DNA from: Synechococcus sp. PROS-9-1
GTDB taxonomy: Bacteria; Cyanobacteriota; Cyanobacteriia; PCC-6307; Cyanobiaceae
Direction of reading: 5' to 3'
Length of the DNA: 64,000 bases
NCBI RefSeq assembly: GCF_014279775.1
Contig: NZ_CP047961.1
Location: forward strand, 186,001 to 250,000
In this document: positions 1,242 to 26,551 of the stretch, piece after piece
Numbering within the stretch: the first letter of the stretch is position 1
Layout of the letters: every line of letters starts with the position of its first letter
The notes under the pieces: generated by a model
Database searches by the model: none
What the model saw: only the letters and a program-made list of their open reading frames with translations
What the model was told of the DNA's origin: nothing
Translations under genes and position numbers: made by a program

Positions 1242-1251
1242 AATTGATTTT

Positions 1252-2232: not shown

Positions 2233-2267
2233 TGATATAGGTTCCTCTTTTTTTATTACTCTTTCCT

Positions 2268-3038: not shown

Positions 3039-3041
3039 TCT

Positions 3042-4154: not shown

Positions 4155-4158
4155 TTAA

Positions 4159-6497: not shown

Positions 6498-6538
6498 CAT
6501 CTAATTCTATTAATTGTTAAATTCTTTTTATTATTTGC

Positions 6539-9073: not shown

Positions 9074-9134
9074 TGGACAGGCCCCATCGTTAACCTCTGA
9101 GGCGGGGTACCGCCCCTGATCGGGGCTCCCACCC

Positions 9135-9422: not shown

Positions 9423-9423
9423 C

Positions 9424-10277: not shown

Positions 10278-10361
10278 CGATGTCATGGACCAGATCTGTC
10301 CAATAAAGGCACCCACCTCAATCTTTCTATTTTATTTATGCGTTCAATATGTTTTCAATAA

Positions 10362-11723
10362 ATGACTAAATTATCTATATTTACCCAGCTAGTTTTGCTT
10401 GGATCTATTTTAACCTACTCTAAATTCGAACCTATTCCCTTCGGAAGTACTGCAAACCCAAGTATATTACTTGCTATTCTTCTCTGGATTAGTTTTTGCG
10501 CTAGTCCTATACCAAAGATTTGTATCGGCATGCTTCAGCGTGCATTTATATATATCCCAATTAGCGCCTTTTTTGCTTATTTATTCATTAGTGATTATAA
10601 TCTTTCACTTGACCCTAGATTTGTACTCACATCGCTTTGCTTTTTTATATATAGTACAGTTTTCATAGGCTTTGGCGTTTACTTATCATCGATCTACAGA
10701 AATAATTTTCCGGAAATGCTTAGCCTCTGCCGAAAACTACTTGATTCGTTGATACTCTTGCTTTGTGTGGTAACTCCTTTAAATATATTGTCTTTGCATT
10801 GCAATCTTTTCAAATGTAGAGAATATGGTGGTAGCCTTGGTTTCTCACTTATAAATTCAGAGCCATCGTATGTAGGAATATTTTTGTTTTCTATTATTAC
10901 CTTTTCATTTTATATTATCAATGACTTCCGCTTGTGCAGCTACTCATCTCTGAGATTGAGATCTAAATTTTTAATTATATTGTCAATTGTGTTATTGTTA
11001 TCTTCAAAATCACCTCTTGCGGTAGCGTCTGTTGGCTTATATGCCGCGTTTATACTATTCATCCATAGAGCAGTACCCATTTTAAAGAATTGGAAGTTTG
11101 TTCTATCTAGTCGCTTTTCTTTCCCACAATTAGTCACTGGTACTATTTTTCTAATAACCATATCATATGCGCTATTCAACACTAAAGTAGGTATAGAATT
11201 TGTGTCACTTTTAAATCCTTCTGTATATTTGCCAAATAACCAATCAGAATCTAATCCATTTCAAGTTCTGGTCTTCTTGGGTGGTAATCGCATATCTTAT
11301 CTTGGTTCTCTTTATTATGTTAATCCTTTACTGTTAATTTCCGGCCACTCAATTTTTTCCTCATCTTTAATATTTGAGAATTCAGTTAATTTATTTTATC
11401 AAAATGTTATGAAAGTTGGATTTTTTAGCGAATATGGAGCCAAGCCTCATTCAGCTTTTGGCCAATTAATGTTTACTTTTGGATTTCTCGGTTCTTTGTT
11501 CATTTATCTTCCAGTATTTAAATTGTTTTTTCAAAACATCTCAACTATATTTCGTAGTAAAACTTCTTATATTGCATTGTGGATTATTTTTAGTCCATTG
11601 TTCTTATTATTGTACTTTACTCCAAATACTGATCCATGGAAATTTTGTACCCTTACGATTTTTGTAGTTTTTACCTCTACTTATCCCCAACTTTTAATCT
11701 CACGAAATCCCAGATCCTTATAA
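10362..11723 (+). CDS. Wzy-like O-antigen/polysaccharide polymerase (polytopic membrane protein)
   Basis: Strongly hydrophobic 453-residue protein with about ten or eleven membrane segments starting at residue 6 (IFTQLVLLGSILTYS). A longer hydrophilic region around residues 280-360, containing PNNQSESNPFQVLVFLGG and EYGAKPHSAFGQLMFTFG, fits the large periplasmic loop of Wzy or WaaL proteins. The HSAFG segment resembles the conserved PHN/HS position near the loop of O-antigen polymerases. It lies 60 bp after the IS element and 1 bp before the next glycosyltransferase gene. Polymerase and ligase cannot be separated by sequence inspection. No separate Wzx flippase is visible nearby. Confidence 0.75.
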   Translation: MTKLSIFTQLVLLGSILTYSKFEPIPFGSTANPSILLAILLWISFCASPIPKICIGMLQRAFIYIPISAFFAYLFISDYNLSLDPRFVLTSLCFFIYSTVFIGFGVYLSSIYRNNFPEMLSLCRKLLDSLILLLCVVTPLNILSLHCNLFKCREYGGSLGFSLINSEPSYVGIFLFSIITFSFYIINDFRLCSYSSLRLRSKFLIILSIVLLLSSKSPLAVASVGLYAAFILFIHRAVPILKNWKFVLSSRFSFPQLVTGTIFLITISYALFNTKVGIEFVSLLNPSVYLPNNQSESNPFQVLVFLGGNRISYLGSLYYVNPLLLISGHSIFSSSLIFENSVNLFYQNVMKVGFFSEYGAKPHSAFGQLMFTFGFLGSLFIYLPVFKLFFQNISTIFRSKTSYIALWIIFSPLFLLLYFTPNTDPWKFCTLTIFVVFTSTYPQLLISRNPRSL

Positions 11724-11724
11724 T

Positions 11725-12558
11725 ATGAATAACTGTTTAATAACCATTGTTTGCCTTACATTTAATAATCCAGTTGAATTCAAGGAGACTTTGGGATCTA
11801 TCATCAATGCTTCTATTTCAGTCGAACATCTGGTAGAGGTACTTGTCATTGATTCCTCTGATGATTTTATATTTAAATTAAACAAGCAATTTCTTAACGG
11901 GATTTGTCCACGCAACCTTTCCTTTAGGCATCTATTAGTAAAGCCAAGGGGGATATATAGTGCTATGAATTATGCTATTGAGAATGCTTTGGGCTTATAT
12001 GTTAACTTTATGCATTCGGGTGATATATTTTTGGCTAAATTCAACCTTTCGTTAATTACATCTTTGATAGCTGAATCTGATTTTGAGCCCGCTTCTCCGG
12101 AATCATATCCATATTTACTTTATGGGAGAACGCTTGTTCAATCTTGTATGACATCTCTCAAATATTTGAATCCACCGCTTAATGTGATTCCAAATCGTAG
12201 ACGCTATTGGAATTATGTCATACCACCTGGCCATCAAGCTTGCTTTTTTCTTCGTACTTGGCATATTGCAAACCACTATTCTCTTGATATAGGAAGTACT
12301 GCTGACCGTTATGTCATTCAGCTTAGTATCATTAAATCTGTTTTCATTGATGTTGTTATCTGTAGTTTCCGGTTATCCGGCACATCTTCATTGAATAATT
12401 TAAAACCTATCAACTACCTCTCTAGATTCTTGCAGATTAAATCTCCAATTATTAAGTTTGGTTTTTGGCCTAAGATCTTTATTAAGCATGTTTTTGGTAA
12501 AAACTGGGAATATATACGACGATTACGTCTTTTTTTCCTCAGTCTTTTTGTTTTTTAA
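11725..12558 (+). CDS. Family 2 glycosyltransferase
   Basis: GT-A fold enzyme. ITIVCLTFNNPVEFKETL (from residue 6) is the first beta-alpha unit, and VEVLVIDSSDD near residue 40 is the second strand with the acidic loop. KPRGIYSAMNYAIENALG (about residues 73-90) is the region that typically reads GIYDAMNKGI in WcaA/WbbD-like transferases. VNFMHSGDIFL near 95 corresponds to the DxD area (usually LNSDD), here HSGD. YVIPPGHQACFF near 164 matches the HQ acceptor/catalytic block of this subgroup. It starts directly after the polymerase gene and is co-directional with the next gene 5 bp away. The sugar donor is unknown. Confidence 0.85.
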   Translation: MNNCLITIVCLTFNNPVEFKETLGSIINASISVEHLVEVLVIDSSDDFIFKLNKQFLNGICPRNLSFRHLLVKPRGIYSAMNYAIENALGLYVNFMHSGDIFLAKFNLSLITSLIAESDFEPASPESYPYLLYGRTLVQSCMTSLKYLNPPLNVIPNRRRYWNYVIPPGHQACFFLRTWHIANHYSLDIGSTADRYVIQLSIIKSVFIDVVICSFRLSGTSSLNNLKPINYLSRFLQIKSPIIKFGFWPKIFIKHVFGKNWEYIRRLRLFFLSLFVF

Positions 12559-12563
12559 ATGCC

Positions 12564-13739
12564 ATGTATGTTCGTTTAATATGGATTGCTCCTGATATTG
12601 CAAGTTTGCGTTATAATAACGCTTCTGATATTTTGCGTCAGGCATTCTCTGCTCTGCGCAAGGAAAATTATAATGTAAAAATGACTATATATGTCTATAC
12701 ATTGGATAATTTTAGCCCAATTGACTCTGCTTATGACGATATTTCTGTCGAGTATATTCCTTCAGCGGCGACTATTTTTAGCCGAAATTCTCGCGAAGAT
12801 TTTAAATTTATTTTTTTTGATGGTTATCGTCTGCCAGATAAGCTTTCTCTGCTTTGTGTCAATATTCGTAAGCCCCAGAACGTGAGAACGTTTTACATAC
12901 AACATGGTAGGTATACTAAGTTGAGCCGAAAAGTCATAAATATGCATATTTTAAAAAAATCTATTTTTTATTCAATTTTTCTACTTAGAACTCTTTTTCA
13001 TTTACCATTATCTACCCTGAATTTATTGTTCTTCCGAAGCCCAGTCGTTGCTGATTTTGCATTTATTTATTGCCCCTTACAGTATTGGATACGCTTTCAC
13101 TCGATGCATAGATTGCTTTTCAAATCGCCCTTTTTAATACAGGATCGTGATATGAAGAGATTTTCTTTGAAATCTCGCATCTTCTATAGTATAAAAAAGC
13201 CATTTCTTTACATTGCCCAGACTCTTGTTGAGGATGGCCGTTGTTCTAAAGATCAATTTTTCGATTTCTGGCGTTCATTAGTAGCCTTTTCTTTACGCTA
13301 CGGTCTTAGTATTGATATACGATTGCACCCCAGGTCGAGTAACAAGCTTTGGCAAGAGATTCAATCTAATACTCAGGATGTTGAATTTAATTTAATTGCT
13401 TCTACAGAATTTCCGAGGTACGATTTTGTCATTACCCATAATTCAGCCATGTCAGTATTCTTTTTGAATAATTCCATTCCTGTATATTTTTTTAGTTTGT
13501 CTTCAGAGCCTTTGCCGTTAGGTCTTGGAAATCACCCACTCTCCCGATCGTTTGAATTTTCAAATAATGCATCTGATGGTCTCTTTTCTTGCCATTCTCA
13601 TCCTTCAGAATTTTCCAATCCATATGATCTTGCTTTAGAAGACAATTTGTCTTTATCTGATGATGCGGTTAGAGAAGTTGACTTGGAGGCTGAAATTGAA
13701 TATCTTACTCTTACAACACTTAAATCTTGTTCTTTTTGA
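12564..13739 (+). CDS. Unassigned GT-B-like protein, possible capsule/nonulosonic-acid transferase
   Basis: No family is certain. The visible features are IRLHPRSSNKLWQEI near residue 253 and YDFVITHNSAMSVFFLNN near 288. An HP motif in a basic context followed by a serine-rich segment at the next strand is the pattern of polysialyltransferase- and capsule-type (KpsS/LipA-like) GT-B transferases. IQHGRYTKLSRKVI near 113 is another strand-loop with a His-Gly. The N-terminal half is basic and AT-rich. It starts 5 bp after a family 2 glycosyltransferase and runs into the start of the cytidylyltransferase-HAD gene, so it is the nearest candidate to use that gene's product. That is inference from position and weak motifs. 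Confidence 0.5.
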   Translation: MYVRLIWIAPDIASLRYNNASDILRQAFSALRKENYNVKMTIYVYTLDNFSPIDSAYDDISVEYIPSAATIFSRNSREDFKFIFFDGYRLPDKLSLLCVNIRKPQNVRTFYIQHGRYTKLSRKVINMHILKKSIFYSIFLLRTLFHLPLSTLNLLFFRSPVVADFAFIYCPLQYWIRFHSMHRLLFKSPFLIQDRDMKRFSLKSRIFYSIKKPFLYIAQTLVEDGRCSKDQFFDFWRSLVAFSLRYGLSIDIRLHPRSSNKLWQEIQSNTQDVEFNLIASTEFPRYDFVITHNSAMSVFFLNNSIPVYFFSLSSEPLPLGLGNHPLSRSFEFSNNASDGLFSCHSHPSEFSNPYDLALEDNLSLSDDAVREVDLEAEIEYLTLTTLKSCSF

Positions 13740-13744
13740 TTATT

Positions 13745-15106
13745 ATGAATTCAACTGCTGCAATCATTCCTTTGAAAATGAATTCGCGTAGGCTACCAAA
13801 TAAGAACTTTCTTTCACTTGGAGGAATACCTTTATGCGCTCATGTCTTCAATTCAATTTCAAAAGTATCAGGTGTTGATACCTACTGCTACTGCTCAAAT
13901 CCTCGAGTAATGGAACTTTTGCCATCTTCGATTAGGTACTTGCCGCGAGACGCATACTACAATGGGGATAATGTTCGTGGCAGAGAACTTTTTGCATCTG
14001 CTATAGAAAAGATTGCCGGATATGATCATATACTTATCACTCATGCCACTTCTCCCTTTGTTCGAACTGATAGTTTTCAAGCAGCTCTTGACTTCTATCT
14101 TTCAAATTTAGATCATTACGATTCTCTTATTGCATGCCGAAAGTTTGATAAATATGCTTGGTTCGAAGGCAAAACACTCAATTACGATCCCTACGAGATG
14201 ATTCAAACAAATAGTATTTCCCCAATTGTTGTTGAAACTAGTGGCTTTTATTTTTTCTCTGCTTCGCACTATTTAAGCACAGGTAGCAGAGTTGGTTATA
14301 GGCCTCATTTTTGGGAACTTTCTTATATAGAAAGCCTTGATATTGATACTGAATCTGATTTCAAAGAGGCTGAACGTGTTTTTGGCTTGGAACAGATTCA
14401 GGCTCTTGTAGGTCACCACCTTGGTGAATCAATGTCTAAGGATATTGATTGCCGCTTGAAAGTCTCACTTGAAAAACCTAAGCTTATAGTTTTTGATTTT
14501 GATGGAGTGTTGATTGATTCAAGGCGTTGTATGGAGCTTGCATGGTCGGCAACCTGTAAGCAGTTTTCTGTCGACATAGATTTTGAACTCTTTTTTGCAT
14601 GTGTTGGCATGAAGTTTGAAGATATTATGCGGAATTTAGATATTGACCACAGCCAGTGGTCGGCTTTTTCTGATACTTATTTCCAGAATACTTGCTCTAA
14701 TTATCATGAAGTTGTTGTTTTTGAAGGTGTCCTAGAAGGGCTTTGTGATTTGAAATCCTATGGTTATAAAGTGGCTATCAATACCTCCAAAAGACTTTCC
14801 AACACTATGGAGCTGATCAGTCTTCTTTTTCCTGACATTGAATTTGACTTTGTTTGCACACCTGATAATATTTTGAGTAAAAGAGGCAAGCCCGCGCCTG
14901 ATTCGCTTCTTCTAATTGCTTCGACTCTTGGCATTGATCCGGCTGACTCTGTCTACTGTGGCGATATGAATGTAGATCAACAATGTGCTATTCGTGCAGG
15001 AGTTAAGTATTTTCATGCTGGCTGGGGTTTTGGTGATTTTGCGCAAATTAATACTATTTGGTTTGAGTGCTTTAAGGACTTTTCGAACTACCTTTTATTT
15101 CTTTGA
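13745..15106 (+). CDS. Bifunctional CMP-nonulosonate cytidylyltransferase / HAD phosphatase fusion
   Basis: Residues 1 to about 220 are a NeuA/KdsB-type cytidylyltransferase: AAIIPLKMNSRRLPNKNF with conserved Arg and Lys, LITHATSPFVRTDSF near 97, and ESLDIDTESDFKEAERVF near 197 with the metal-binding Asp pair. From about residue 246 to 453 there is a HAD phosphatase with a small alpha-helical cap: VFDFDGVLIDS (motif I nucleophile Asp), INTSKR (motif II), RGKPAPDSLL (motif III Lys) and YCGDMNVDQQCA (motif IV). This could dephosphorylate a nonulosonate 9-phosphate and activate the product with CTP. I chose ATG 13745 over an upstream TTG at 13727 that would overlap the previous gene. The exact sugar is not determinable. 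Confidence 0.82.
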   Translation: MNSTAAIIPLKMNSRRLPNKNFLSLGGIPLCAHVFNSISKVSGVDTYCYCSNPRVMELLPSSIRYLPRDAYYNGDNVRGRELFASAIEKIAGYDHILITHATSPFVRTDSFQAALDFYLSNLDHYDSLIACRKFDKYAWFEGKTLNYDPYEMIQTNSISPIVVETSGFYFFSASHYLSTGSRVGYRPHFWELSYIESLDIDTESDFKEAERVFGLEQIQALVGHHLGESMSKDIDCRLKVSLEKPKLIVFDFDGVLIDSRRCMELAWSATCKQFSVDIDFELFFACVGMKFEDIMRNLDIDHSQWSAFSDTYFQNTCSNYHEVVVFEGVLEGLCDLKSYGYKVAINTSKRLSNTMELISLLFPDIEFDFVCTPDNILSKRGKPAPDSLLLIASTLGIDPADSVYCGDMNVDQQCAIRAGVKYFHAGWGFGDFAQINTIWFECFKDFSNYLLFL

Positions 15107-15221
15107 GTTTTTATACTTGCATGAATCAAAATAATTAGTCTTCTCTCTGGATACTTATCATTCAGGGAATGTTGGTTTAGAGTGTAGTTCTAGCATCCGA
15201 ATGAGCGCATACCTCTTTTAA

Positions 15222-15776
15222 TTGTTGTCATTGGTGGAGCTAGCCCAGCCCCCTTTCTCCTCGGTCAGCCCCCTGGTCACGTTGCTGCTTTTGGGGCTAG
15301 CGATTGCCTGTTTCATCGGCGGTTGGCTGGCGCCTGAGCTGGTGGCCTTGTTGGCCGCAGGCTTACTGATGGCCACAGGTGTGCTCACGCCCAATGAGGC
15401 CTTAGCTGGTTTTGGGAGCCCTGCCCTGATCACCCTGGTGGGTTTGTTTGTGCTCTCCAATGGCTTGCTGCATAGCGGCGCCTTGGATCGCTTGCGTGAA
15501 TTGCTGGCGTCGCCCCGAATCCGCAACCCCAGCCAGTTGATGCTGGTGTTTGGCTTTGTGGTCGCACCCATTTCGGGATTCATTCCCAACACTCCGATCG
15601 TGGCGATTTTGCTGCCGGTGTTGCAGGGCTGGTGTCAGCGCCGCGGGATCAGCCCATCGCGGGTGTTGATGCCGCTGTCGTTTGCCACCCTGATCGGCGG
15701 TACGATCACGTTGATTGGCACCTCCACCAGCTTGTTGGCTAGTGATTTGGTACCCAGGCATCACAGTAAGAAGTAG
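15222..15776 (+). pseudogene. 5' fragment of an SLC13-type permease gene (partial duplicate)
   Basis: The protein (about 184 aa) matches the first roughly 165 residues of the complete permease at 31.3 kb, sharing blocks such as [18 protein letters not shown] and [15 protein letters not shown]. At DNA level, 15271-15759 aligns to 31325-31813 without gaps (constant offset 16054), and roughly nine in ten bases agree by eye. Homology stops abruptly after a CCAGGC, and the frame then runs to an unrelated stop. The first four or five membrane segments remain and the rest of the transporter is missing, so it should be non-functional. Its GC-rich composition is foreign to the AT-rich genes on both sides. 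The start codon would be TTG. Confidence 0.85.
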
Positions 15777-16358
15777 TTTCGCTTGATATGGCTGTGTATC
15801 GCGGATGTTCCCAGACTTTGAGTATTTGTTATGTTGACGATTTGGTAAATGGTCTAATGCTACTTATCTAAAGCAGGTGCATCTGCCCTACTAGTATTGG
15901 CAACTTTCGTGAGTTCAATGTCCTTAAACTTGCTGAGTAAGTGCACGACAAAATGGATCCCGAATTACCCTTAACAATGAAATCTCTTCTTTTCTTGCCT
16001 GGTTTCAAGAAATCCTTCAACAAGATTTTTGTCGGCTTTGACAATGTCTGAGTTGCGTCGACTCTTGACAGCGCCAAGCGATGGCTGTGTTTGCCATGAA
16101 GTTCTTATGAAAGTAATGAGTTGTGATGAGAGTTGGCAGTAGTTATAGCTAAATTTTTGCAAGTAAATTTTCCCCTCTAAGGACGTGAATTGTAGGAATT
16201 TGGGATTAATCCTATGGCTTTATTGTCTTTGCTTGGACATATGTATTCGCGAAAGTTTCAAGTTTTTATTCAGCCACTGTGGCCAATAGTCGAAGTGTTC
16301 CAGGTCAGCGCTGTTAGATTAGCCTTTAAGTAGTATGCGTATAATTAAATAAAGCAAT
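15777..16358. other. Non-coding stretch, about 580 bp, no gene recognised
   Basis: It lies between the truncated permease fragment and neuA. Stops are frequent in all frames and codon-like structure is absent. It probably holds decayed sequence plus the promoter of the neuA-neuB unit, but I could not pick out a convincing -35/-10 pair. Confidence 0.4.
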
Positions 16359-17036
16359 GTGAGACCTTCTGCTCTGGCAATTATTCCTGCAAGAGGTGGT
16401 TCTAAGGGAATCCCTGGTAAGAATAGTAAAATTTTAGGAGGTCTTCCTCTCATTGCAAGGGCTATATCTGCAGCAAAGGGCAGTTCAAGAGTTGAGCGAG
16501 TCGTCGTAAGTACTGATGATGATTTAATCGCTTCAATTGCTCGAGATTATGGGGCAGAAATAGTTGTTCGCCCTGAAGAGCTGGCAGGAGATACGTCTAG
16601 CTCCGAATCAGCTCTCTTGCATACGCTTAATGTCTTAAGCGAGGGTGTGAAATTGCCAAATCAATTGCTTTTTCTGCAGTGCACCTCCCCATTTACTTCT
16701 AGTCAGCAGATCGATACAGTTCTTAGTGCTTTGGACGATCCATTTATTAATAGTAGTTTTTCAGTTTCTCCGTGGCATGGGTTTATTTGGCAAGGTGATG
16801 GATTGCCCGTCAACCATGATCCCAATAAACCCCGTCAGCGTCGTCAAGACTTGATGCCGTCTTATATTGAAACGGGAGCTATTTATGCAATGAATACAGA
16901 GGCTTTTCTTTTGTCCGAAAGCAGGTTTTGCAAGCCGTGGATGCCGGTTATTATGAACGAACATTCTCCTGAAATTGATACCCTTGAGGATTTTGAATAT
17001 TGCCATTTCCTTATGTCTAAATCTGGTTTAAAGTAA
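16359..17036 (+). CDS. neuA: CMP-N-acylneuraminate (nonulosonate) cytidylyltransferase
   Basis: Activates a sialic-acid-like nonulosonic acid with CTP. The signature LAIIPARGGSKGIPGKN (residues 5-21) is canonical for NeuA/PseF/LegF, and QCTSPFTSSQQIDTVL near 108 is the next conserved block. ETGAIYAMNTEAF near 168 and SPEIDTLEDFEYCHF near 206 carry the metal- and substrate-binding residues. The length (225 aa) is that of a single-domain enzyme. The start is GTG at 16359, because the overlapping ATG at 16357 runs straight into TGA. It is 16 bp upstream of the neuB-like gene, so the two form an operon. It is a second cytidylyltransferase in addition to the HAD fusion 1.3 kb upstream, so two different CMP-sugars are possible. 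Confidence 0.92.
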   Translation: MRPSALAIIPARGGSKGIPGKNSKILGGLPLIARAISAAKGSSRVERVVVSTDDDLIASIARDYGAEIVVRPEELAGDTSSSESALLHTLNVLSEGVKLPNQLLFLQCTSPFTSSQQIDTVLSALDDPFINSSFSVSPWHGFIWQGDGLPVNHDPNKPRQRRQDLMPSYIETGAIYAMNTEAFLLSESRFCKPWMPVIMNEHSPEIDTLEDFEYCHFLMSKSGLK

Positions 17037-17052
17037 GTTTCTTTTTTGATTC

Positions 17053-19332
17053 ATGAATTCTATTAGTATTGAGAGAAATTTCACCAAGTTCGTTGTTTTT
17101 GCAGAAGACACAATTCTATCTGCTTTGAGCAAGATCACCGCCAATGAATCGCGATTAATATTTGTAGTATGTGAGTCTGGAATCCTGCAGGGTGTTTTCA
17201 CCGACGGCGATTTCCGTCGATGGATTGCCAGCTGCGGTGACATCGAATTAAATCGTCCGGTGACGGTGGCGATGAACCCAGAATTCCAAAGTGCTTCAGA
17301 GGGAACGTCTCCAGTAGAGCTTGCCGCTCTTCTGACCTCACGAATCATCGCCCTGCCGCTTCTAGATAGTCATGGTCGGATTGTGGCGGTCGCTCTTCCT
17401 GCCACGGATGGTTTGCAGTTGGGCTCCCGTCGCATCGGTGATGGCGAGCCGAGTTTTGTCATTGCTGAGATTGGTAACAACCACAACGGCGATGTTGCCT
17501 TTGCGCTTCAGTTGATTGATGCGGCCCACGCTGCAGGTGCGGACTGTGCAAAGTTCCAGATGCGTGACATGACGAAGCTGTATAGCAATGCAGGCAACAG
17601 CAATAATATGGCCTCGGATTTGGGGACTCAGTACACGCTTGATCTGCTTGAACGCTTCCAGCTCAGTGACGATGAATTGTTCCGATGTTTCGACTACGCC
17701 GCCTCAAAAGGGCTTTTGCCGCTTTGTACCCCCTGGGATGAGACCAGTCTAGAGAAGCTGAATGGCTGGGGTATGGAGGGGTTCAAGGTGGCCTCCGCTG
17801 ACTTCACAAACCACACTCTGATCAGCAAGTTGGCCTCCACGGGGAAACCGCTGATCTGCTCAACAGGAATGGCTAGCGAGCTTGAAATCCGCTCTGGTAT
17901 CCGTCACCTGCAGCAGGAGGGTGCGAACTATGTTTTGCTGCACTGCAATTCCACCTATCCCACACCGTTCAAGGATGTGAACCTGCGCTATCTCGACCGC
18001 TTAAGAGAACTGACTGATGCTCCTGTGGGCTATTCCGGACACGAACGGGGGATTGAGGTACCGATTGCGGCTGTTGCTATGGGCGCAGCAGTGATCGAAA
18101 AACACATCACCATTGACCGGGGTATGGAGGGAAACGATCACAAGGTGAGTCTGCTGCCTGATGAATTCGCCCAGATGATTCAGGGCATCCGCCGAGTTGA
18201 GGAATCTATGGGTCAGGGCGGCGAGCGAAGCATCAGCCAGGGTGAGATGATGAACCGTGAGGTGCTGGCCAAAAGCCTTGTGGCTGCCTTCGATGTGCCG
18301 GTTGATACGGAGATCACCGAAGCGATGGTGCGCATCCAGAGCCCAGGCCAGGGTCTGCAACCGAACCGGCTCAAGGATCTGATCGGCCGCCGCCTGCCGG
18401 TGGCCAAGGCCCAAGGGGAGGTGTTCTTCCCATCCGATCTGGAAACATCAGCGGTCACCCCACGCCACTATCAGTTCAAACAGCCGTTTGGTCTTCCCGT
18501 TAGGTACCACGACATTAAAGTTTTTTCCGAGGTCAGTAACCTCGATCTGGTCGAGATCCATCTCAGCTACAAGGATCTCGAGGTTGATCTCAACCAAGTC
18601 TTACTGGATCGGCAGGGCATAGGACTGGTGGTTCACGCCCCTGAACTTTTTGCCGGCGATCACACCTTGGACCTCTGCACGGAAGACTCGAGCTATCGGG
18701 AACACTCGATCGCCGAACTTCAGAGGGTTATAGATATTTCAAGGGATCTGAGAAATCGCTTCCAGTGCCCGGAGCCAGTGTTGTTGGTGACCAATTTAGG
18801 GGGGTTCTCAGAACACCATCACCTCAGCCGCAGCGAGCGTGAGCCCCTGCGCGAGAGGCTGATTGCAAGTCTCCAGAAGCTCAATACAGCTGATGAGGTG
18901 GAGATTATCCCCCAAACGATGCCCCCATTCCCCTGGCACTTCGGCGGACAACGCTTCCACAACTTATTTGTAGACACGGACTTCATCCGTAAGTTCTGTG
19001 AGGAGCAGGGCATGCGGGTATGCCTAGATGTATCCCACTCAAAACTTGCTTGCAACCATCTGCATATCCCATTCCGTCAGTTCCTCGACCAGATTCTGCC
19101 TTTCACGGCTCACCTGCATCTGGCGGATGCTAAGGATGTGGACGGTGAAGGTCTACAGATCGGAGAAGGTGATATCGATTGGATGCAATTGTTCGAGCAG
19201 ATAGATCAACACTGCCCCAATGCCTCGTTTATTCCAGAGATCTGGCAGGGGCATAAAAATGGCGGGGAGGGGGCATGGATAGCATTAGAAAAGCTTGAGG
19301 CTTTCAATCAGAATGCCTCAACAAACAAATGA
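17053..19332 (+). CDS. Multidomain nonulosonic acid synthase: CBS pair + NeuB + SAF + xylose-isomerase-like TIM barrel
   Basis: 759 residues with four visible parts. Residues 10-125 are two CBS repeats (FTDGDFRRWI is typical), which often bind adenine nucleotides. Residues about 136-380 are the NeuB barrel: IAEIGNNHNGD, AKFQMRD, CSTGMASE, LHCNSTYPTP, GYSGHERG and IEKHITIDR, which condense phosphoenolpyruvate with an N-acyl hexosamine. Residues about 400-463 are the antifreeze-like SAF domain (KSLVAAFDVP to GEVFFPSDLE). Residues about 485-748 look like a xylose-isomerase/AP-endonuclease-2 barrel with potential metal ligands in VVHAPE, CLDVSHSK, AHLHLADAKD and FIPEIW. A normal NeuB is about 340 aa. 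The last domain could be an epimerase or isomerase preparing the hexosamine substrate, which is inference. Confidence 0.9.
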   Translation: MNSISIERNFTKFVVFAEDTILSALSKITANESRLIFVVCESGILQGVFTDGDFRRWIASCGDIELNRPVTVAMNPEFQSASEGTSPVELAALLTSRIIALPLLDSHGRIVAVALPATDGLQLGSRRIGDGEPSFVIAEIGNNHNGDVAFALQLIDAAHAAGADCAKFQMRDMTKLYSNAGNSNNMASDLGTQYTLDLLERFQLSDDELFRCFDYAASKGLLPLCTPWDETSLEKLNGWGMEGFKVASADFTNHTLISKLASTGKPLICSTGMASELEIRSGIRHLQQEGANYVLLHCNSTYPTPFKDVNLRYLDRLRELTDAPVGYSGHERGIEVPIAAVAMGAAVIEKHITIDRGMEGNDHKVSLLPDEFAQMIQGIRRVEESMGQGGERSISQGEMMNREVLAKSLVAAFDVPVDTEITEAMVRIQSPGQGLQPNRLKDLIGRRLPVAKAQGEVFFPSDLETSAVTPRHYQFKQPFGLPVRYHDIKVFSEVSNLDLVEIHLSYKDLEVDLNQVLLDRQGIGLVVHAPELFAGDHTLDLCTEDSSYREHSIAELQRVIDISRDLRNRFQCPEPVLLVTNLGGFSEHHHLSRSEREPLRERLIASLQKLNTADEVEIIPQTMPPFPWHFGGQRFHNLFVDTDFIRKFCEEQGMRVCLDVSHSKLACNHLHIPFRQFLDQILPFTAHLHLADAKDVDGEGLQIGEGDIDWMQLFEQIDQHCPNASFIPEIWQGHKNGGEGAWIALEKLEAFNQNASTNK

Positions 19333-19440
19333 AACCATTTTATTTTTTGAAGCTATTCTTCAAAGCAATAACTGATCAAGTACGAAAAAAGACTTTTTCT
19401 AAGCAAGTTCCTTGTTCTCGCTTTTTTATAGTTTTTTAAT

Positions 19441-20514
19441 GTGAAAAAGATACTTATTTTTTGGAAGGGTTTGCCAGCCTGCTCCGCTCTCACTAATTCT
19501 TTAGCAAAATCCCCGGAATATCATGTTGATCTTTTCTATACACAGCCATCCGTTCCTTTTGAAAACCTTCACACTTATCTTGATGGAATAAAATCACTCA
19601 GGCGGATTAGTTCAATAAAAGACATCCCTGAGCCCTGCGAGTTATCCAAATACAACCTTATAATCGTTACTGGATGGTACTCCCATCAGTGGAATCGAAA
19701 CTTGCAGATTGCAAAAAAAATTAATCGGTCACTTATAGTAGCTTCAGCAATTGACAACATTAAGGCTATAAAAACTACACACAAACTAAGACAACTTTTT
19801 GGCATGTTAGCTTATCGCGTTTATTTAAGTAGAATATTTGATTATTGTCTTGTTCCTGGAACGGATTCTTCTGAGTTAATGAAATTTCTGGGGCATCCAA
19901 GTTCCAAAATTTATCAGGGTTATTATGGGGCCTCTAGTCAAATTTATTCTACATGTGTAAAAATAAGAAATCGACCTAAAAATTTCTTATTTGTTGGACA
20001 GATTATCCCAAGAAAAGGTATTGATATACTGATTAATGCATTTAAGCTATATCAGAAAGCCGGTGGTACATATGGCCTAACAATTGTAGGCTCTACAGAT
20101 GAAAAAGAGGATAAAGCAATACTTAGTATCGAAGAATTTCAAAGTATTCAACTTTTATCTTTTGCCCAGCCTGATAAAATAGCTGATCTCATGAATTGGC
20201 ATAGAGTATTAATAACTCCTAGTCGATTTGATCACTGGGCTACGGTAGTTTGTGAAGCTGCGGCGTGCGGATGCCTTCTAGTTGCATCGAAGCAAGTTGG
20301 TGCTTCCAACGACATCATAAAAAATGGCATTAATGGCTTTGTTTTTGATGCCTTAAAAAAATCTCCTGAGAAGGACTTAGCTGCAATTATGCATAAATTA
20401 GAATTATTGCTAGATTCTGAGTCTGCTGAACAAAGAAGTATGATTTCTCAAAAGATTTCGTCATTGTGGTCTGAACATCAATATAAGTTGTCTGTAGAGG
20501 CTATGTTAAAATGA
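19441..20514 (+). CDS. Family 4 glycosyltransferase
   Basis: GT-B enzyme. FLFVGQIIPRKGIDILINAF near residue 181 opens the C-terminal donor domain (the GRL..KG pattern), and SRFDHWATVVCEAAACG near 260 is the EX7E-type sugar-nucleotide site, here in the D..H..E variant seen in several O-antigen transferases. Translation starts at GTG 19441, since the ATG two bases earlier is followed by TGA. It ends in an ATGA overlap with the ABC transporter gene, so it is translationally coupled to the exporter. It follows the nonulosonate genes after 108 bp and may build the same glycan. The donor sugar is unknown. Confidence 0.85.
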   Translation: MKKILIFWKGLPACSALTNSLAKSPEYHVDLFYTQPSVPFENLHTYLDGIKSLRRISSIKDIPEPCELSKYNLIIVTGWYSHQWNRNLQIAKKINRSLIVASAIDNIKAIKTTHKLRQLFGMLAYRVYLSRIFDYCLVPGTDSSELMKFLGHPSSKIYQGYYGASSQIYSTCVKIRNRPKNFLFVGQIIPRKGIDILINAFKLYQKAGGTYGLTIVGSTDEKEDKAILSIEEFQSIQLLSFAQPDKIADLMNWHRVLITPSRFDHWATVVCEAAACGCLLVASKQVGASNDIIKNGINGFVFDALKKSPEKDLAAIMHKLELLLDSESAEQRSMISQKISSLWSEHQYKLSVEAMLK

Positions 20515-22187
20515 GTACATCAAGCATAAGTTTAGCTTTTAAGCTTTTCATTAGGTATTCCGGCCAGTACAAATTATTGTTTTTAGCTTCATCAGTAGCA
20601 AATTTTTTTTCCAGTTTATTTGAAGCTATACTTGCTATATCTCTCCCCCTTTTAGTTAGTCAATTTTTTGCTGGCAATAACAAAACAACCTTGCAATATT
20701 TCCATGTTTTTAGCGAACCTTCAGTATTTATTCTTACAGTTGCAGCAGCCCTCGCGTTGAAAAACTATAGTTTGTATATTAGCGCTAGATACTCTGCATC
20801 AGTCTCATGCGCTTATTTAAAAGATTTTTGCACATCATTTTATGAACAAGATATAGATAGCATAAAAAAAACAACAAAAGAAAATCTCTCATCTTTCATC
20901 CAAGGAAATTTCCCTCTCATCGGAAGGGAAGTCTTTTTCCCATCAACTCAAATCTTTTCGTCAGGAGTTTTTATATGCATATTGCTTGTTTCTATATTTA
21001 ATACAGATGAAGTTGATATCTCATTGTTAGGAATACTTTTAATCACAATGGTAGTAAGTTATATACTTACCTCATTATTTACGAGTAAAAAACTGGTTAA
21101 GTTAGGCAGTAAGGTGAAAGACATTATTCACTCTCAAGGTGATCTCGTTGGATTTTTGCATACCACATCACTTGATGATGCGTATTCAAGCAAGCCATAT
21201 CAATACTCTCAAATGTTAAATAATAACGATTATCGATTGAAAAAAATTCAGATTAAAGCAGTTTTACTTACCTCTTTACCAAAATCTCTTGCTGAATCAT
21301 CACTGTTAATTGTATTGGTAATATCTGTAATAGTAGCTTCTCAACACGCTGGTATTATATCTGTTTCCTCTTCCGCTCTTATTGGATCATTTTATATATT
21401 ATTTAAATTACTAAGTGCAGTACAGCTCCTATCTAGATCAATTTTCTTACTAAAATCGAACGCAGAAATTCTAAATCTGCTCGAATCTAATCTTCACGAG
21501 TTTAAGATTAATAAAGTTCGTGATTATGTTCAATTTGAGACATTTCTGGATCCACGGATTTTACTTAAAGTTTGCTCATTAGTTGTAAATTCGAGGCTTA
21601 TGAAAAGCAAATTGAACTTTATTGTAAATGAAGGCGATATTTGTTTAATTGACGCACAATCTGGAATCGGAAAGTCTAGATTAATGTATACTCTTACAGG
21701 GAAACTGGAACCCTTAGAAGGCAGTGTTAGATTTAATAGGATAATTCCATTAAATCAATCTTTCCCTTTTCTTGTGGCACAAAAACAGCAGTTAATTAGT
21801 GGCATTGTTAACGATATGATCGATTTTGGAACAATCCCTGAAACTGTAGAATATATACAAAAACTTTATAGTATTTATGATGTAGATGTTAAGGTCTTTA
21901 CTGATGGTATAGGTTTCAATGACAATATACAATCATTCTTGGAGTCATCTGCTCATGATTTATCTGGAGGACAATTGCAAAGAGTTTTAATCCTAAAAAG
22001 TTTAACTTGCCAAAATATGCTTCTGATTTTAGATGAACCTACATCAAATCTAGATTCAATAACGGAATCTAAATGTTTAAGTGAATTAGTCAAATTTGTA
22101 ACTAAAAGACCCAAAACCGCACTAGTGTACACCTCACACTCTTTTAATGCTAAGCACTTTGCAACTAAAGTTATCTCACTATCCTAA
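20511..22187 (+). CDS. ABC exporter half-transporter, PglK/MsbA-like lipid-linked glycan flippase
   Basis: Fused membrane domain (about residues 15-310, six predicted segments) and ATPase domain (about 340-555). The Walker A is variant, with Ala for the first Gly: AQSGIGKSRL. The signature is HDLSGGQLQRVLIL, the Walker B is LLILDEPTSNLDS and the switch His is in YTSHSF. In this setting (pyruvyltransferase and glycosyltransferases on both sides, no Wzx) the most likely role is flipping an undecaprenyl-linked oligosaccharide to the periplasm, as PglK/Wzk does. It overlaps both neighbours by a few bases, which marks a co-translated unit. A general lipid exporter role cannot be excluded. Confidence 0.85.
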   Translation: MSTSSISLAFKLFIRYSGQYKLLFLASSVANFFSSLFEAILAISLPLLVSQFFAGNNKTTLQYFHVFSEPSVFILTVAAALALKNYSLYISARYSASVSCAYLKDFCTSFYEQDIDSIKKTTKENLSSFIQGNFPLIGREVFFPSTQIFSSGVFICILLVSIFNTDEVDISLLGILLITMVVSYILTSLFTSKKLVKLGSKVKDIIHSQGDLVGFLHTTSLDDAYSSKPYQYSQMLNNNDYRLKKIQIKAVLLTSLPKSLAESSLLIVLVISVIVASQHAGIISVSSSALIGSFYILFKLLSAVQLLSRSIFLLKSNAEILNLLESNLHEFKINKVRDYVQFETFLDPRILLKVCSLVVNSRLMKSKLNFIVNEGDICLIDAQSGIGKSRLMYTLTGKLEPLEGSVRFNRIIPLNQSFPFLVAQKQQLISGIVNDMIDFGTIPETVEYIQKLYSIYDVDVKVFTDGIGFNDNIQSFLESSAHDLSGGQLQRVLILKSLTCQNMLLILDEPTSNLDSITESKCLSELVKFVTKRPKTALVYTSHSFNAKHFATKVISLS

Positions 22188-23368
22188 TGAAAGTATTTCT
22201 TCTAAATGACGGACGAGCCACTTCAAATTGGGGACTTCAAGCATCAACTCAAGCTTTGCTTGAGATATTCAATGCAAGAGGTTTGACTGTATCGACACTC
22301 ACTCATTCAAAACTCCATAGCAAGTACTTATGGGACTTTACAGTATTTAATAAGAAATTTTTCAATGAAAATAGTAGATTCTTGTCTAAATTTTCTCCGT
22401 CTAATCTTAATATACCTCAAACATCTGATCAATATGAAGTTTATACTGAACTATGGAATACTGGTCAGGGAGGTGCTCTTTCAAAAGAAATAATAAACAA
22501 AATCGAAGAGGCAGACATTGTTATATTCAATGCTGAAGGAAGTACTTATAGGAAAAACTTTGGAGCACTAGCGGGATTATTTATACTTAATTATGCGGTT
22601 CAAATCTATCAGAAAAGGGCATTATTTGCCAATGGAAGCTTTACTATAAGCAGTATCGATAATATATTGACTGGTATTGCGAAGAAATTGAATGATAATG
22701 GTGTGAATTTTTTTGTTAGAGAACCAATTTCGGCAGAGTGCCTGTATTCAATTGGAATAAGATCAGTAGTTGTCCCAGATTCAGTTTTTTATTATGCAGA
22801 TTCAAGATTAGTAGTACACAATGATGTTCGAAAAAAGAAGACTTTCGCTATTTCTAAAAGTATGCTTCCCATGTGCAATTTTGGAGCAGTAGAAGATGAT
22901 CCTTTTTATCATTTAATATGTGAAATTATGAAAACTACTGGCCTCAATCCTGTATTTTTTGCCAAAGATCCCGAAGATCAAATGATACGTAAGTATATTA
23001 AGCACATACCGGATGCACAAGTTGGCATATTTAATTCTAACGACTTCAAAAAAGTTCAGTCTACTATTTCCGACTCCAAGTTTTTGTTGTCAGGTCGTTA
23101 TCACCACCTCATCTTTGCAATCAATACTGGTACATATATTTGCCCTTTATCAAGTTCATCCCATAAGATTGAAGGATTAATGAAGTTAATCGCTCCTTCT
23201 CCACCCGCCTCTTGCCAGTGCTTTGATCCAACCGATATTCAAGCTAATATAAAATTAATAACCAAAAATATTGATACTCAAATACACACACAAAACACTG
23301 TACCTTACATTAGTGCTGATTCATTGCGACATCAACTTATCGATTCGTTTACCACTATTCTACAATGA
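22187..23368 (+). CDS. Polysaccharide pyruvyl transferase family protein
   Basis: Likely adds a pyruvyl ketal from phosphoenolpyruvate to a glycan sugar, as CsaB, WcaK and ExoV proteins do. VFLLNDGRATSNWGLQAST at the N-terminus is the usual N-x-G start of the fold, IVIFNAEGSTYRKNFGAL near 110 carries the conserved E-G segment, and FVREPISAECLYSIGI near 180 is the family R-E-x-x-S/A-x-x-x-L block. SGRYHHLIFAINTGTYICP near 303 matches the R-x-H-x-x-I-x-A motif with the catalytic His, and SHKIEGLMK completes it. The length is 393 aa. It shares one base with the exporter stop (TAATG) and four with the next gene. Confidence 0.85.
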   Translation: MKVFLLNDGRATSNWGLQASTQALLEIFNARGLTVSTLTHSKLHSKYLWDFTVFNKKFFNENSRFLSKFSPSNLNIPQTSDQYEVYTELWNTGQGGALSKEIINKIEEADIVIFNAEGSTYRKNFGALAGLFILNYAVQIYQKRALFANGSFTISSIDNILTGIAKKLNDNGVNFFVREPISAECLYSIGIRSVVVPDSVFYYADSRLVVHNDVRKKKTFAISKSMLPMCNFGAVEDDPFYHLICEIMKTTGLNPVFFAKDPEDQMIRKYIKHIPDAQVGIFNSNDFKKVQSTISDSKFLLSGRYHHLIFAINTGTYICPLSSSSHKIEGLMKLIAPSPPASCQCFDPTDIQANIKLITKNIDTQIHTQNTVPYISADSLRHQLIDSFTTILQ

Positions 23369-24840
23369 AAAAAGCCGCCCTTTTTCTACCTTCTGTCGCA
23401 TTTACTCCACCTTTAGAGCTTAGTATTTGTCATGCAAGGCGCCTTATAGCAGAGGGTTATGAGATAACGACATTTGAGTTTGGTAAACATATAATAAGGT
23501 CTCAGTTTAATCAATATGGAAATATAATTATGCACATATATACTTTATCAAGACAAAAACAATTCTCTCGCTTTGTACCTACACATAAAAAAGTATATTT
23601 TAGGAGGTCCGTTTCGAATTTCTCTTTTGCGTCAGTCGACCTAAATGATAGAAATAAATCAGCTTACCTGTCTGTAATGTCATCGTTAGCATCGCGTTTT
23701 AGAGTTACTGATTTTGATCAGCTACCTCATACTTGGCAAATACGTTTTCCATATCTTATTCAAAGTTATCAACTGATTTATGAGAATGCTATCAGAGCAA
23801 TTCAATTAGAGAATATTTCAGTTGTAGGAGTATTTAATGGTAGATTTTTTGATTCTGCTGCGATAGTTAGTGCTGCACAGGCTATGGGTATAGATTATTT
23901 TGTTTACGACGTAAATAGATCGGCCTCTCAGTATTATTTCTACAATACAAGTCTTCATAGTATACAAGCTAATCAAGAAAAAGCGTTGAATTTCTATGAT
24001 CCTAAGAATTTAAACCATGTAAATTGCGCTCATGAATTCTTTTTGAAAAGAAGGTCTGGTAAACGAACCTATGAGAAATCATTTACTGCTGGCCAAAAGA
24101 GAGGATTCCTGCCAAAAGAGATAAAAAATACAAGGATCATAGCGGTTTATCCAAGTTCTGATGATGAATATAGATTTTTAGTGGATGAAAGTATTTATAA
24201 ATGTGTTGATCAAGTTTCAGAGCTTTCCATGTTTTGCAACGAACTGTTAAAAGCTGATTTGGATTATAAGATTTGCATAAGATTGCATCCCAATATGGCT
24301 CAAATGCATCCTACTGCGCTTCAAAGATACAATTTACTTGCTGAGTATAAGAATGTTTACCTTGCCAATCCTCTCGATGACTTAGATACTTATGCTCTGC
24401 TTGATGCGGCAGAAATTGTTGTTGGTTTCTGCTCTTCTATTATTTTAGAATCTGCGTATATAGAAAAGTCAACTTTATTGATAGGTCCTTCATTGTATTG
24501 TGGCATGAAATTGGGTGACGAATTCTCATCAGGCTTAAAGGCTGCGAATTTTATCATAAATAAATATGAGTTTACTGTGCCTTCAAAAGTAAATTCCATG
24601 ATGTGGGCGGCTTATATTAATCTTTATAATGATCCACTACCTTCTTTTTCTATTGATAATGGTCTAGCTAGGGTTGATTTATTAGAGATTTTGCCTCCTC
24701 GTATATGGCGAATCTTATCGGCTGTCGTAAAATTATACTACGAAATTTTTGAGTATCATTCTTCTTCACTGACCCTTAAGCAAAAAATTCGAGATATATT
24801 ACGTCGTAGTAAAGCAATTATGCACAACAAGTGGTCTTAG
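23365..24840 (+). CDS. Capsule-type GT-B-like protein of unknown specificity
   Basis: 491 residues, probably a glycosyltransferase of the KpsS/KpsC or polysialyltransferase-related kind. ICIRLHPNMAQMHPTAL near residue 306 supplies the HP motif. Further on, LLDAAEIVVGFCSSIILES near 347 and KSTLLIGPSLYCG near 370 are the strand-loop-strand parts of the nucleotide-sugar domain, where the serine pair usually binds the CMP phosphate. The N-terminal LELSICHARRLIAEGYEI is a GT-B acceptor-domain helix. Together with the 12564 gene it is one of two HP-motif proteins in a cluster that makes a nonulosonic acid, so a CMP-sugar donor is plausible. It is the last gene of a four-gene overlapping run. Confidence 0.55.
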   Translation: MKKAALFLPSVAFTPPLELSICHARRLIAEGYEITTFEFGKHIIRSQFNQYGNIIMHIYTLSRQKQFSRFVPTHKKVYFRRSVSNFSFASVDLNDRNKSAYLSVMSSLASRFRVTDFDQLPHTWQIRFPYLIQSYQLIYENAIRAIQLENISVVGVFNGRFFDSAAIVSAAQAMGIDYFVYDVNRSASQYYFYNTSLHSIQANQEKALNFYDPKNLNHVNCAHEFFLKRRSGKRTYEKSFTAGQKRGFLPKEIKNTRIIAVYPSSDDEYRFLVDESIYKCVDQVSELSMFCNELLKADLDYKICIRLHPNMAQMHPTALQRYNLLAEYKNVYLANPLDDLDTYALLDAAEIVVGFCSSIILESAYIEKSTLLIGPSLYCGMKLGDEFSSGLKAANFIINKYEFTVPSKVNSMMWAAYINLYNDPLPSFSIDNGLARVDLLEILPPRIWRILSAVVKLYYEIFEYHSSSLTLKQKIRDILRRSKAIMHNKWS

Positions 24841-24881
24841 TATATATTTCATGATAAATTTAACTTTTTGATGGTTGACCT

Positions 24882-25162
24882 ATGCTCCTACCTTTGACAA
24901 TACTTTCTTTGATTTCATTATTTATAGTACTATTCTTTTCCAAGTTCCTAAGCTATGTTTGGCAAGTATTTTCTTTCCAATATTACCTTCCGTAGCATCA
25001 AGATTTGTAGATATTTAAGATTATGCATTGTATGGTGTTGCACTGATCAAGCAGATGAATAATGTTAAGGTTGCGTTAATTACTTGCCTTGTCTATAGAT
25101 GTGTAAGCTCTCTGCTCATCCGCTTGATTTTCAGTAATATTTTAACTAGAATGTGCAATTAA
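24882..25162 (+). pseudogene. Decayed membrane protein remnant, possibly AglD/UPF0104 (LPG-synthase TM) flippase-like
   Basis: In the about 400 bp gap two broken frames read as a membrane protein: LLPLTILSLISLFIVLFFSK then, one frame over, LPSVASRFVDI, a TAA, and in the same frame DYALYGVALIKQ followed by NNVKVALITCLVYRCVSSL. The second part resembles the C-terminal P-x-x-x-G...E-x-A-L...A-x-x-x-L-x-Y-R-x-x-S signature of lysylphosphatidylglycerol-synthase-type membrane domains. At least one frameshift and one stop are needed to join the parts. The assignment is by eye and tentative. Confidence 0.35.
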
Positions 25163-25242
25163 ATCGCAATTTCCAATACGGCAAACTCTGTAAAGTTAAT
25201 TACACGCACCCTTATTCTTCTTGCGACAATAAAACTTCTTAT

Positions 25243-26355
25243 ATGAAAAAAATTGTTTTTCACGGCGAAATATTCTATATGCAACGGTATGGGGGCATAT
25301 CTAACCATTTTTTTTCAGTTATCGAACTTCTGGTAAAAGTATATTTCATAAAAGTTGATATAATTATACCCAAAAAAAGTTATCCTAAAGCGATTCTTAA
25401 TCCCTCCTTTGAGAGACTTCGTTCTCTTCCAAAAGTAAGCATAATTCAATATCAAGAACTGGCTGCATGTCTGTCCAGCAATAAAGTTGCCTATGTTCAT
25501 GCAACTTATTACAATCCGTCTTTGTTGTTGTATTGCAAAAATGTATCATATACTTTTCATGATGCTGCTCAAGAGCGTTTCTTCTTTCGGTTTTTTCGAC
25601 CTAATAATATTGCTCTTTTTGTATTGAGACAAATATGCTTTACTTTTGCATCCAAAATTGCAGTAGTATCACTGGCCTCTCTTTCAGAGTTGAACCGCTA
25701 CTTTCCTCTTTCACGAATGCGTTCGAATCAGCTGAAAATCGTGGTTGGCAATGGAGTTGATAAGCATTATTTACGTGTCGGTAATAGCAGACTGCATGCT
25801 ATTGCGACTCGTGAAATCAATAAGCTAATTATATCAATATGTTATATTGGCTTGCGTGGTTATTATAAAAACTTCAGATCAATGGTTGTTGCTGTTGGGC
25901 AACTCAGCAAACAGCTCAATGTATCTGTTGTTATCAAGATTGTAGGAGGTCCAAGTCTCAATAAATCTGAATTATCCTTGTTATCTAAAGAAGGATTAAA
26001 TTGGGAACATCTCAATCCTTTGTCTAGAAGTGAATTGGCTGATTGTATTGTTAGTTGTGATATTTTCTTGCATCCTTCGATCTATGAAGGTTTCGGCATG
26101 ACTGTACTTGAGGCAATGGCGTTGTCAGTACCGGTTGTTGCTGTAAATATTTCTTCTGTGAGGGAGTTTGCTGGGGATACAATTATTTATGCTTCTTCCG
26201 GTTCTCCAGATGACATCACTTTAGCTCTGGCCAATAGTTGCGCTTTGACGCCTTCTGCTCGCCACTCTATGCTTTGTAAAGCACACCATTTTGCTTTGTC
26301 CCTTAGCTGGAATAATGTTGCTTACAATTATTCGATTATGTTTGATTCAAATTAA
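25243..26355 (+). CDS. Family 4 glycosyltransferase
   Basis: GT-B mannosyl/galactosyl-transferase type. The N-terminus (IFYMQRYGGISNHFFSVIE) carries the glycine-rich RYGGISxxF block usual in this group, and VGNGVDKHYL near residue 170 precedes the donor domain. The nucleotide-sugar site is IYEGFGMTVLEAMALSVPVV near 284, a full E-G-F-G...E (EX7E) motif. I chose ATG 25243 because the protein then begins at the first strand. An upstream GTG at 25153 would add 30 residues without similarity and lies in decayed sequence. It stands apart from the preceding overlapping run. The donor and linkage are unknown. Confidence 0.88.
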   Translation: MKKIVFHGEIFYMQRYGGISNHFFSVIELLVKVYFIKVDIIIPKKSYPKAILNPSFERLRSLPKVSIIQYQELAACLSSNKVAYVHATYYNPSLLLYCKNVSYTFHDAAQERFFFRFFRPNNIALFVLRQICFTFASKIAVVSLASLSELNRYFPLSRMRSNQLKIVVGNGVDKHYLRVGNSRLHAIATREINKLIISICYIGLRGYYKNFRSMVVAVGQLSKQLNVSVVIKIVGGPSLNKSELSLLSKEGLNWEHLNPLSRSELADCIVSCDIFLHPSIYEGFGMTVLEAMALSVPVVAVNISSVREFAGDTIIYASSGSPDDITLALANSCALTPSARHSMLCKAHHFALSLSWNNVAYNYSIMFDSN

Positions 26356-26551
26356 CAAGTTTCGATCTGCACTAACCCACGCCCACCCTTCTCCAAAGTC
26401 ATTTCACCAGCATCAAGTTTTCAGCGATCTGTGATGCCTGGATCGTAATTTTTTCTGTACTACTCCGTTCCTGAGGTTTAGCTGTGATTTGCTGATAAGT
26501 ACACAATTTTCAAGGTTCTCATGAAAACTCGACTCTTTGCCTATTTATCTA

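Follow-up and report, generated by a model that had tools for sequence, protein, structure and literature searches.

A conserved fusion of a NeuB-type synthase to a second TIM barrel in Synechococcus sp. PROS-9-1 and other bacteria

Nonulosonic acid synthases of the NeuB/PseI/LegI type, represented by meningococcal NeuB (1xuu) and Campylobacter jejuni PseI (8h2c), combine a NeuB barrel with a SAF domain. The SAF, or antifreeze-like, domain, to which R314 belongs, extends into the active site of the partner (PMC7591256). Fusions of such a synthase to a further domain have been in print since 2012. In Leptospira interrogans, one synthase (sas/neuB2, LA_1613, NP_711794; YP_002104) ends in a domain with homology to endonucleases, for which Ricaldi 2012 infers a phosphatase activity and an animal-like 9-phosphate route (PMC3438082); a later account repeats the phosphatase reading, adds a further N-terminal domain, called a transferase, in pathogens and lists neuB2, an aminotransferase and neuA2 as consecutive genes in its Table 3 (PMC4758666). 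The parts available of PMC7591256 and PMC7439481 contain no such fusion. Here we describe a gene of this kind in a stretch of 64,000 nucleotides from Synechococcus sp. PROS-9-1 (contig NZ_CP047961.1, positions 186,001 to 250,000; hereafter the window), which shares with the Leptospira synthase, compared by its text description only, the NeuB domain and the C-terminal endonuclease-like domain.

The gene is a single frame of 759 residues, with an ATG start and no internal stop, whereas its reverse complement contains many stops in the frame translated. It encodes a CBS pair, a NeuB synthase, a SAF domain and a second, xylose-isomerase-like triose-phosphate isomerase (TIM) barrel (Table 1). All four Pfam domains score over their cut-offs: CBS at residues 14-59 (25.8 bits against a cut-off of 24), NeuB (270 bits), SAF (33 bits) and AP_endonuc_2 at residues 498-736 (74.4 bits). 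A preliminary description of the locus had proposed this single fused frame, with two CBS repeats, a synthase with SAF domain and a C-terminal xylose-isomerase-like barrel, and had allowed that similar fusions might be annotated elsewhere; the architecture is borne out, and so is the second suggestion. A scan of the genome_contigs collection, with one genome per species and 84,980 species, returned 175 relatives, and each of the best 80 that were retained matched across almost the entire length of the fusion. Identity to the window protein is 51-89% in a 69-row alignment (A1/A2, without five near-copies and three X-containing rows), and the family has members in Cyanobacteriota, Pseudomonadota, Bacillota, Spirochaetota, Thermodesulfobacteriota and others. 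Near-full-length relatives at this identity in several phyla rule out a chance frame or an assembly artefact, and the same spread rules out a cyanobacterial novelty. This is a real, conserved fusion family joining a NeuB synthase to a second barrel. Columns at least 97% conserved make up 33% of the NeuB domain, 26% of the second barrel, 24% of the SAF domain and 12% of the CBS pair. Counts over loci refer to 77 loci, the window and 76 others; L014, L054, L060 and L072 were left out since the greedy open reading frame (ORF) caller placed no fusion frame of more than 600 residues in them, although L014 and L054 do show a fusion frame.

Table 1. Position and basis of the fusion, its domains and the adjacent sugar-activating genes in the window.
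Feature	Position	Strand	Basis
CBS pair-NeuB synthase-SAF-AP_endonuc_2-type barrel fusion, 759 residues	17053-19332	+	frame translation, Pfam, near-full-length relatives
CBS pair, residues 1-118	17053-17406	+	Pfam CBS and PDB sequence matches
NeuB synthase barrel, residues 154-389	17512-18219	+	Pfam 270 bits, invariant catalytic residues
SAF domain, residues 407-464, Ser430 at the R314 position	18271-18444	+	Pfam, alignment
Second TIM barrel, xylose-isomerase-like, residues 472-759	18466-19329	+	Pfam, model, fold comparison
CMP-nonulosonate synthetase, PseF-like (below PseF cut-off), CTP_transf_3	16359-17036	+	Pfam/NCBIfam
Single frame of CTP_transf_3 and HAD hydrolase; possibly an accessory phosphatase, of uncertain membership	13727-15106	+	Pfam

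The synthase half has the PF03102 barrel followed by SAF that a NeuB-type synthase requires, and shares its catalytic residues with NeuB, PseI and LegI. The equivalents of meningococcal NeuB K53, Y186, H215, H236 and D247, in columns placed through the alignment to 1xuu, are invariant in 77/77 fusions; they comprise the metal-binding His pair and residues acting on phosphoenolpyruvate (PEP) and the sugar. Two other positions depart from the known enzymes. The N184 equivalent is Ser in all 77, and the R314 equivalent, in a column fixed by the mutant structures 4ipi and 4ipj (R314A, R314K), is Ser in 76 and Cys in one. In the 13 free NeuBs compared, which come from related loci and genomes, the residue ahead of PGxG is Arg (12) or Lys (one); the low-scoring NeuB-like frames of L072 and L073 have none of the motifs and are excluded from the 13. 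Among six CBS-less fused forms, the position is Ser in four and lies in RSPQVG and RAPNIG in the other two. R314 contacts the N-acetyl group, and its replacement suggests that the acceptor sugar of the fusion differs from N-acetylmannosamine (ManNAc). The fusion also passes as neither equivalog, scoring 308.3 bits against 399.65 for NeuB_NnaB (TIGR03569) and 222.8 against 340.25 for PseI (TIGR03586). Both marks of a ManNAc-using N-acetylneuraminate synthase, a TIGR03569 score over cut-off and R314, are therefore lacking, and the fusion is set apart from NeuB, PseI and LegI by these features together with its additional CBS pair and barrel.

Modelled alone, the second barrel reaches a predicted local distance difference test score (pLDDT) of 90.4 and a predicted template modelling score (pTM) of 0.90, and its best structural match is the tagatose-3-epimerase-type barrel 3wqo (Z 24.9, 2.6 Å over 248 residues). 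Foldseek and VIA-align both rank MJ1311, L-ketose and D-tagatose 3-epimerases and UlaE highly, at Z values of about 22-25 and identities of about 13-18%, with endonuclease IV (Z 22) and xylose isomerase close behind; since these are nearly tied, the fold alone does not pick the chemistry of the barrel. D-tagatose 3-epimerase and UlaE enzymes use a two-Glu epimerase mechanism with a Glu-Asp-His-Glu metal and catalytic set. In the fusion, Asp659, His689 and Glu729 lie at the expected ends of strands 6, 7 and 8, and His662 likewise at or next to strand ends in the range of strands 5 to 8, their proximity being judged from strand positions in the model. All 69 rows keep Asp659, His662 and Glu729, and position 689 is His in 68/69. 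On strand 5, by contrast, where UlaE and Hyi carry Glu, the fusion has Gln621, in a column given by hhalign at probabilities of 14% (UlaE) and 4% (Hyi) and in agreement with the strand-5 end in the model. The barrel has the PF01261 TIM-barrel fold of the tagatose-3-epimerase/UlaE group, and not its four-residue set; with Gln for the first metal or catalytic Glu, a copy of the classic two-Glu mechanism is unlikely. The apparent metal ligands noticed in the preliminary description are thus in place on strands 6 to 8, with Gln for Glu on strand 5, and its suggestion of an isomerase or epimerase agrees with the fold type and is weakened by that same Gln and by the phosphatase proposed for Leptospira. 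The signature around Gln621, QTMPPFPWHFGGQ, persists in divergent copies, reading QWLPPIAWYFGG in L094 and L134 and QTLPPFPWYFGGQ in the viral contigs, and the motif QxxPPxxWxFGG is retained even in L094 and L134.

The barrel appears to occur solely in company with the synthase: no stand-alone barrel gene was seen in five barrel-led searches, in which 13/13 matches lay in NeuB-bearing frames (3/229, 1/348, 3/345 and 2/344 genomes and four viral loci). Four of the 13 are the centre genomes, picked for carrying the fusion (G291, G292, G293 and G1222), and nine lie outside these; three of the four viral matches (L144-L146) are near-copies, and the fused state of L150 is judged by a 751-residue frame and by L052 from the same genome. 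A wider count, 122/122 barrels with NeuB, suffers from redundancy and bias, most of those loci having been retrieved through the fusion itself. The barrel of L094, unrecognised by Pfam at E 1e-4, is found by the fusion-barrel profile at 102 bits.

Pfam reports one CBS copy in the fusion, and matches to CBS pairs of KpsF/KdsD type support a pair spanning residues ~14-113. The closest PDB sequence match is 4o9k, a KdsD/KpsF arabinose-5-phosphate isomerase (E 1.6e-8), reportedly solved with CMP-Kdo (the cytidine monophosphate (CMP) derivative of ketodeoxyoctonate); there the related pair is carried by an isomerase, whereas in the fusion it is attached to a synthase. The pair is not present in L094, L134, L139, L140 and the viral fused forms. 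In L140 a related pair (30% identity to that of the window, E 2e-12) instead opens a neighbouring HddA-like kinase, and L139 is arranged likewise, while a fusion-derived CBS profile also matches nucleotidyltransferase-like frames (L072 and L118, by eye) and frames of DegT aminotransferase type (L033, L053 and L074). Being dispensable and found on other enzymes, the pair behaves as a plug-in of surface-sugar enzymes. It plausibly senses a nucleotide, and feedback by a CMP-sugar is the natural guess.

The most constant neighbour of the fusion is the CMP-nonulosonate synthetase, whose gene in the window ends 16 bases 5' of the fusion. A homologue lies within 5 kb in 58/77 loci by neighbour clustering, the window included, the next cluster reaching 15/77, and phmmer across whole loci finds it in 59/77; contig ends restrict these counts. 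Apparent two-gene modules are flanked by opposite-strand ORFs on both sides (L038, L051) or on one (L050), as called from mechanical ORFs. SDR, Gfo/Idh or DegT genes stand beside some copies.

The window genome (2.27 Mb, one contig) has a single NeuB and a single PF01261 match, both of which are the fusion frame. No NeuC in it exceeds the cut-off (best 92 bits against 235.9), which extends to the whole genome the earlier report that the window has none, and no AGE-type N-acetylglucosamine (GlcNAc) 2-epimerase was found. An unfused NeuC and NeuB pair that could do the work elsewhere in the genome, a possibility which that description had raised, was looked for and, at these cut-offs, not found. 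The one full PF02350 match, at 1643491, we take to be a WecB-type enzyme. The fusion is also the only NeuB in 7/12 other genomes examined. NeuC over cut-off occurs in 3/13 genomes, all with additional NeuBs, and in 0/7 of the other fusion-only genomes. At 3042-5649 in the window, the dehydratase and aminotransferase are of the CDP-glucose 4,6-dehydratase and RfbH types (over cut-off), likely a 3,6-dideoxyhexose route, and so offer no supply for legionaminic (Leg) or pseudaminic (Pse) acid.

The interpretation that we prefer, tentatively and as something short of an even chance, is a bifunctional nonulosonic-acid synthase in which a metal-dependent barrel supplies the acceptor aldose in cis. 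We infer from the conserved catalytic residues that the NeuB-SAF half would condense PEP with a six-carbon aldose. The second barrel would provide this aldose by enolisation of a common sugar, free or phosphorylated, either isomerising a ketose to an aldose or carrying out a 2-epimerisation, and the neighbouring cytidylyltransferase would make the CMP-sugar. As a detachable plug-in, the CBS pair might bind a nucleotide and so tune the flux; the ligand could be the CMP-sugar formed at the end of the pathway. The missing R314 equivalent points to an acceptor lacking the usual N-acetyl group at its usual position; a mannose-type sugar, giving a product like ketodeoxynonulosonic acid (Kdn), would be one example. 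In a fully specified version, which we think unlikely, the pathway would comprise two genes and no epimerase: the barrel would convert a ketose, e.g. fructose or its 6-phosphate, into a mannose-type aldose, the synthase would join it to PEP to give a Kdn-like, non-acylated nine-carbon acid, and the CBS pair would sense the CMP-sugar. Such a two-gene layout would be unlike the neuraminic (Neu), Leg and Pse routes, and would be spread over several bacterial phyla and on viral contigs.

Several observations weigh against supply by the barrel. Gln occupies position 621 in 69/69 rows, where UlaE and Hyi have Glu. The full-length model has a pTM of 0.66, so that a channel between the two active sites cannot be argued. 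The two-gene modules rest on mechanical ORFs, and unlinked genes could supply the acceptor. An AGE-family epimerase is present in 3/8 genomes in which the fusion is the only NeuB, the window genome not among the three, and could make ManNAc there. A search of the window genome for a separate epimerase found neither NeuC over cut-off nor AGE, NanE, PseB/LegB and PseG not having been searched genome-wide. The self-contained synthase of the preliminary description accordingly draws support from the two-gene modules and from the lack of NeuC and AGE in this genome, and loses it in 3/7 of the other fusion-only genomes, where AGE is found. Lastly, the CTP-transferase and HAD frame of the window (Table 1), a layout that recalls vertebrate CMP-sialate synthetase, could serve a 9-phosphate route. 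As a part of the conserved module this frame was rejected, its HAD half as sole query having a counterpart in 1/77 loci, the window itself, and none in the other 76.

A 9-phosphate route is also what the Leptospira accounts imply: the synthase would take a sugar 6-phosphate and the endonuclease-IV-like barrel would remove the 9-phosphate, which would account for modules without a HAD phosphatase. In the accessible portions of those accounts the phosphatase is itself inferred, with no assay (PMC3438082; PMC4758666). The barrel does count endonuclease IV among its fold matches, with DxxH and HxxD motifs in common, but sugar 3-epimerases are the top matches by a small margin. Endonuclease IV has a nine-residue trinuclear zinc site, with Asp229 and His231 among its zinc ligands; in a weak alignment (12%, covering part of the barrel) Glu145 falls opposite a gap beside Gln621, and Asp229 and His231 also fall opposite gaps. 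We consider a phosphatase improbable.

We are similarly doubtful that the barrel acts after the synthase, epimerising or dehydrating the nine-carbon sugar ahead of CMP activation. Its C-terminal position would suit this order, a glucal hydratase and a keto-glucoside epimerase share the fold, and the SDR, Gfo/Idh and DegT genes beside some copies could add keto or amino groups; the apparent two-gene modules of L038, L050 and L051, however, have no oxidising partner alongside. That the barrel has lost catalysis and acts for the synthase as a scaffold or binding module would suit a Gln621 that never varies at the position of the key Glu, but it seems very unlikely: Asp659, His662, Glu729 and other strand-end polar residues do not vary in the 69 rows, dead enzymes usually drift, and even the remote L094 and L134 keep QxxPPxxWxFGG. 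A NeuB-only annotation of the fusion-only genomes (7/12) would predict sialic, legionaminic or pseudaminic acid, despite the absence of NeuC over cut-off and the replaced R314; if the barrel makes the acceptor, such genomes hold an unrecognised nonulosonate route. Should the barrel prove to be a phosphatase, a broad family would stand behind the animal-like route proposed for Leptospira.

The gene order reported for Leptospira, neuB2-aminotransferase-neuA2, recurs as fusion, DegT and CTP transferase in L152, from the spirochaete-group genome G1415, and in L058, whereas no aminotransferase adjoins the window fusion. The published domain is called a phosphatase, in the portions available of those papers, while the nearest folds of the window barrel are sugar epimerases. 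Barrel matches occur in 2/344 spirochaete-group genomes, the centre included. The breadth of the family, the Ser and Gln marks and the bare link to a CMP-synthetase are absent from the accessible parts of the Leptospira accounts; no novelty is claimed for the wider family.

Among 291 sampled cyanobacterial genomes, 20 carry full fusions (>900 bits, the window's included) and one, G241, a shorter CBS-less form. The full fusion was not found in four other listed genomes of the same genus, which fits an accessory gene. A NeuB tree, with 45 fusion rows at most, intermixes phyla, placing for example a Spirochaetales metagenome-assembled genome (MAG) among Nitrosomonas, Rhabdochromatium and Methylococcaceae copies, and this suggests, MAG binning errors aside, that the fusion has spread by horizontal transfer. 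A branch with support 100/98 separates the free NeuBs from the rest, and L094 and L134, the most distant CBS-less forms, have long branches and unsure placement. Among 102 records, a plasmid search returned one full-length fusion, from Ensifer canadensis, with no annotated genes.

The very divergent NeuB-barrel fusions of L094 (within 4630-10194) and L134 (within 444-3345) are 613 and 621 residues long, and each adjoins a gene judged, in L094 by Pfam and in L134 by eye, to be of GDP-mannose-dehydratase type. The genome that carries L094, of 1.6 Mb, belongs to the same family as the window. Viral contigs L143, L144, L145 and L146 carry a CBS-less fusion. In L144 (6984-9753 and 13987-14682) a gene of the DapA/KdgD family, scoring below cut-offs, comes after the fusion, inside a long glycan-type gene run that also holds a gene resembling CMP-sugar synthetases by eye. 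In L140 (7749-12299), a GmhA-like isomerase, the CBS-bearing HddA-like kinase and an HddC-like transferase, all below equivalog cut-offs, surround a CBS-less fusion; by eye L139 (7831-12408) holds a similar heptose-type set, the families being tested for L140 only. A general heptose link was not adopted, the GmhA query finding nothing beside the 77 loci, the kinase two weak matches and the transferase one weak and distant match.

Within the window, the composition of the fusion gene (G+C 52.9%) differs from that of the glycosyltransferase island around it; G+C is 40.0% over 8001-26500 and 54.1% over 33001-64000. The beginning of an intact CitMHS-type transporter (31318-33072) recurs in a truncated copy at 15222-15776; the repeat (15267-15759 against 31321-31813, 88% over 493 bases) flanks 16 kb holding the fusion and is possibly the trace of an insertion or duplication that brought the stretch in. 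At 9280-10164, in the low-G+C island, lies a probable remnant of an insertion sequence (IS)-type transposase, recognised by HTH_21 only.

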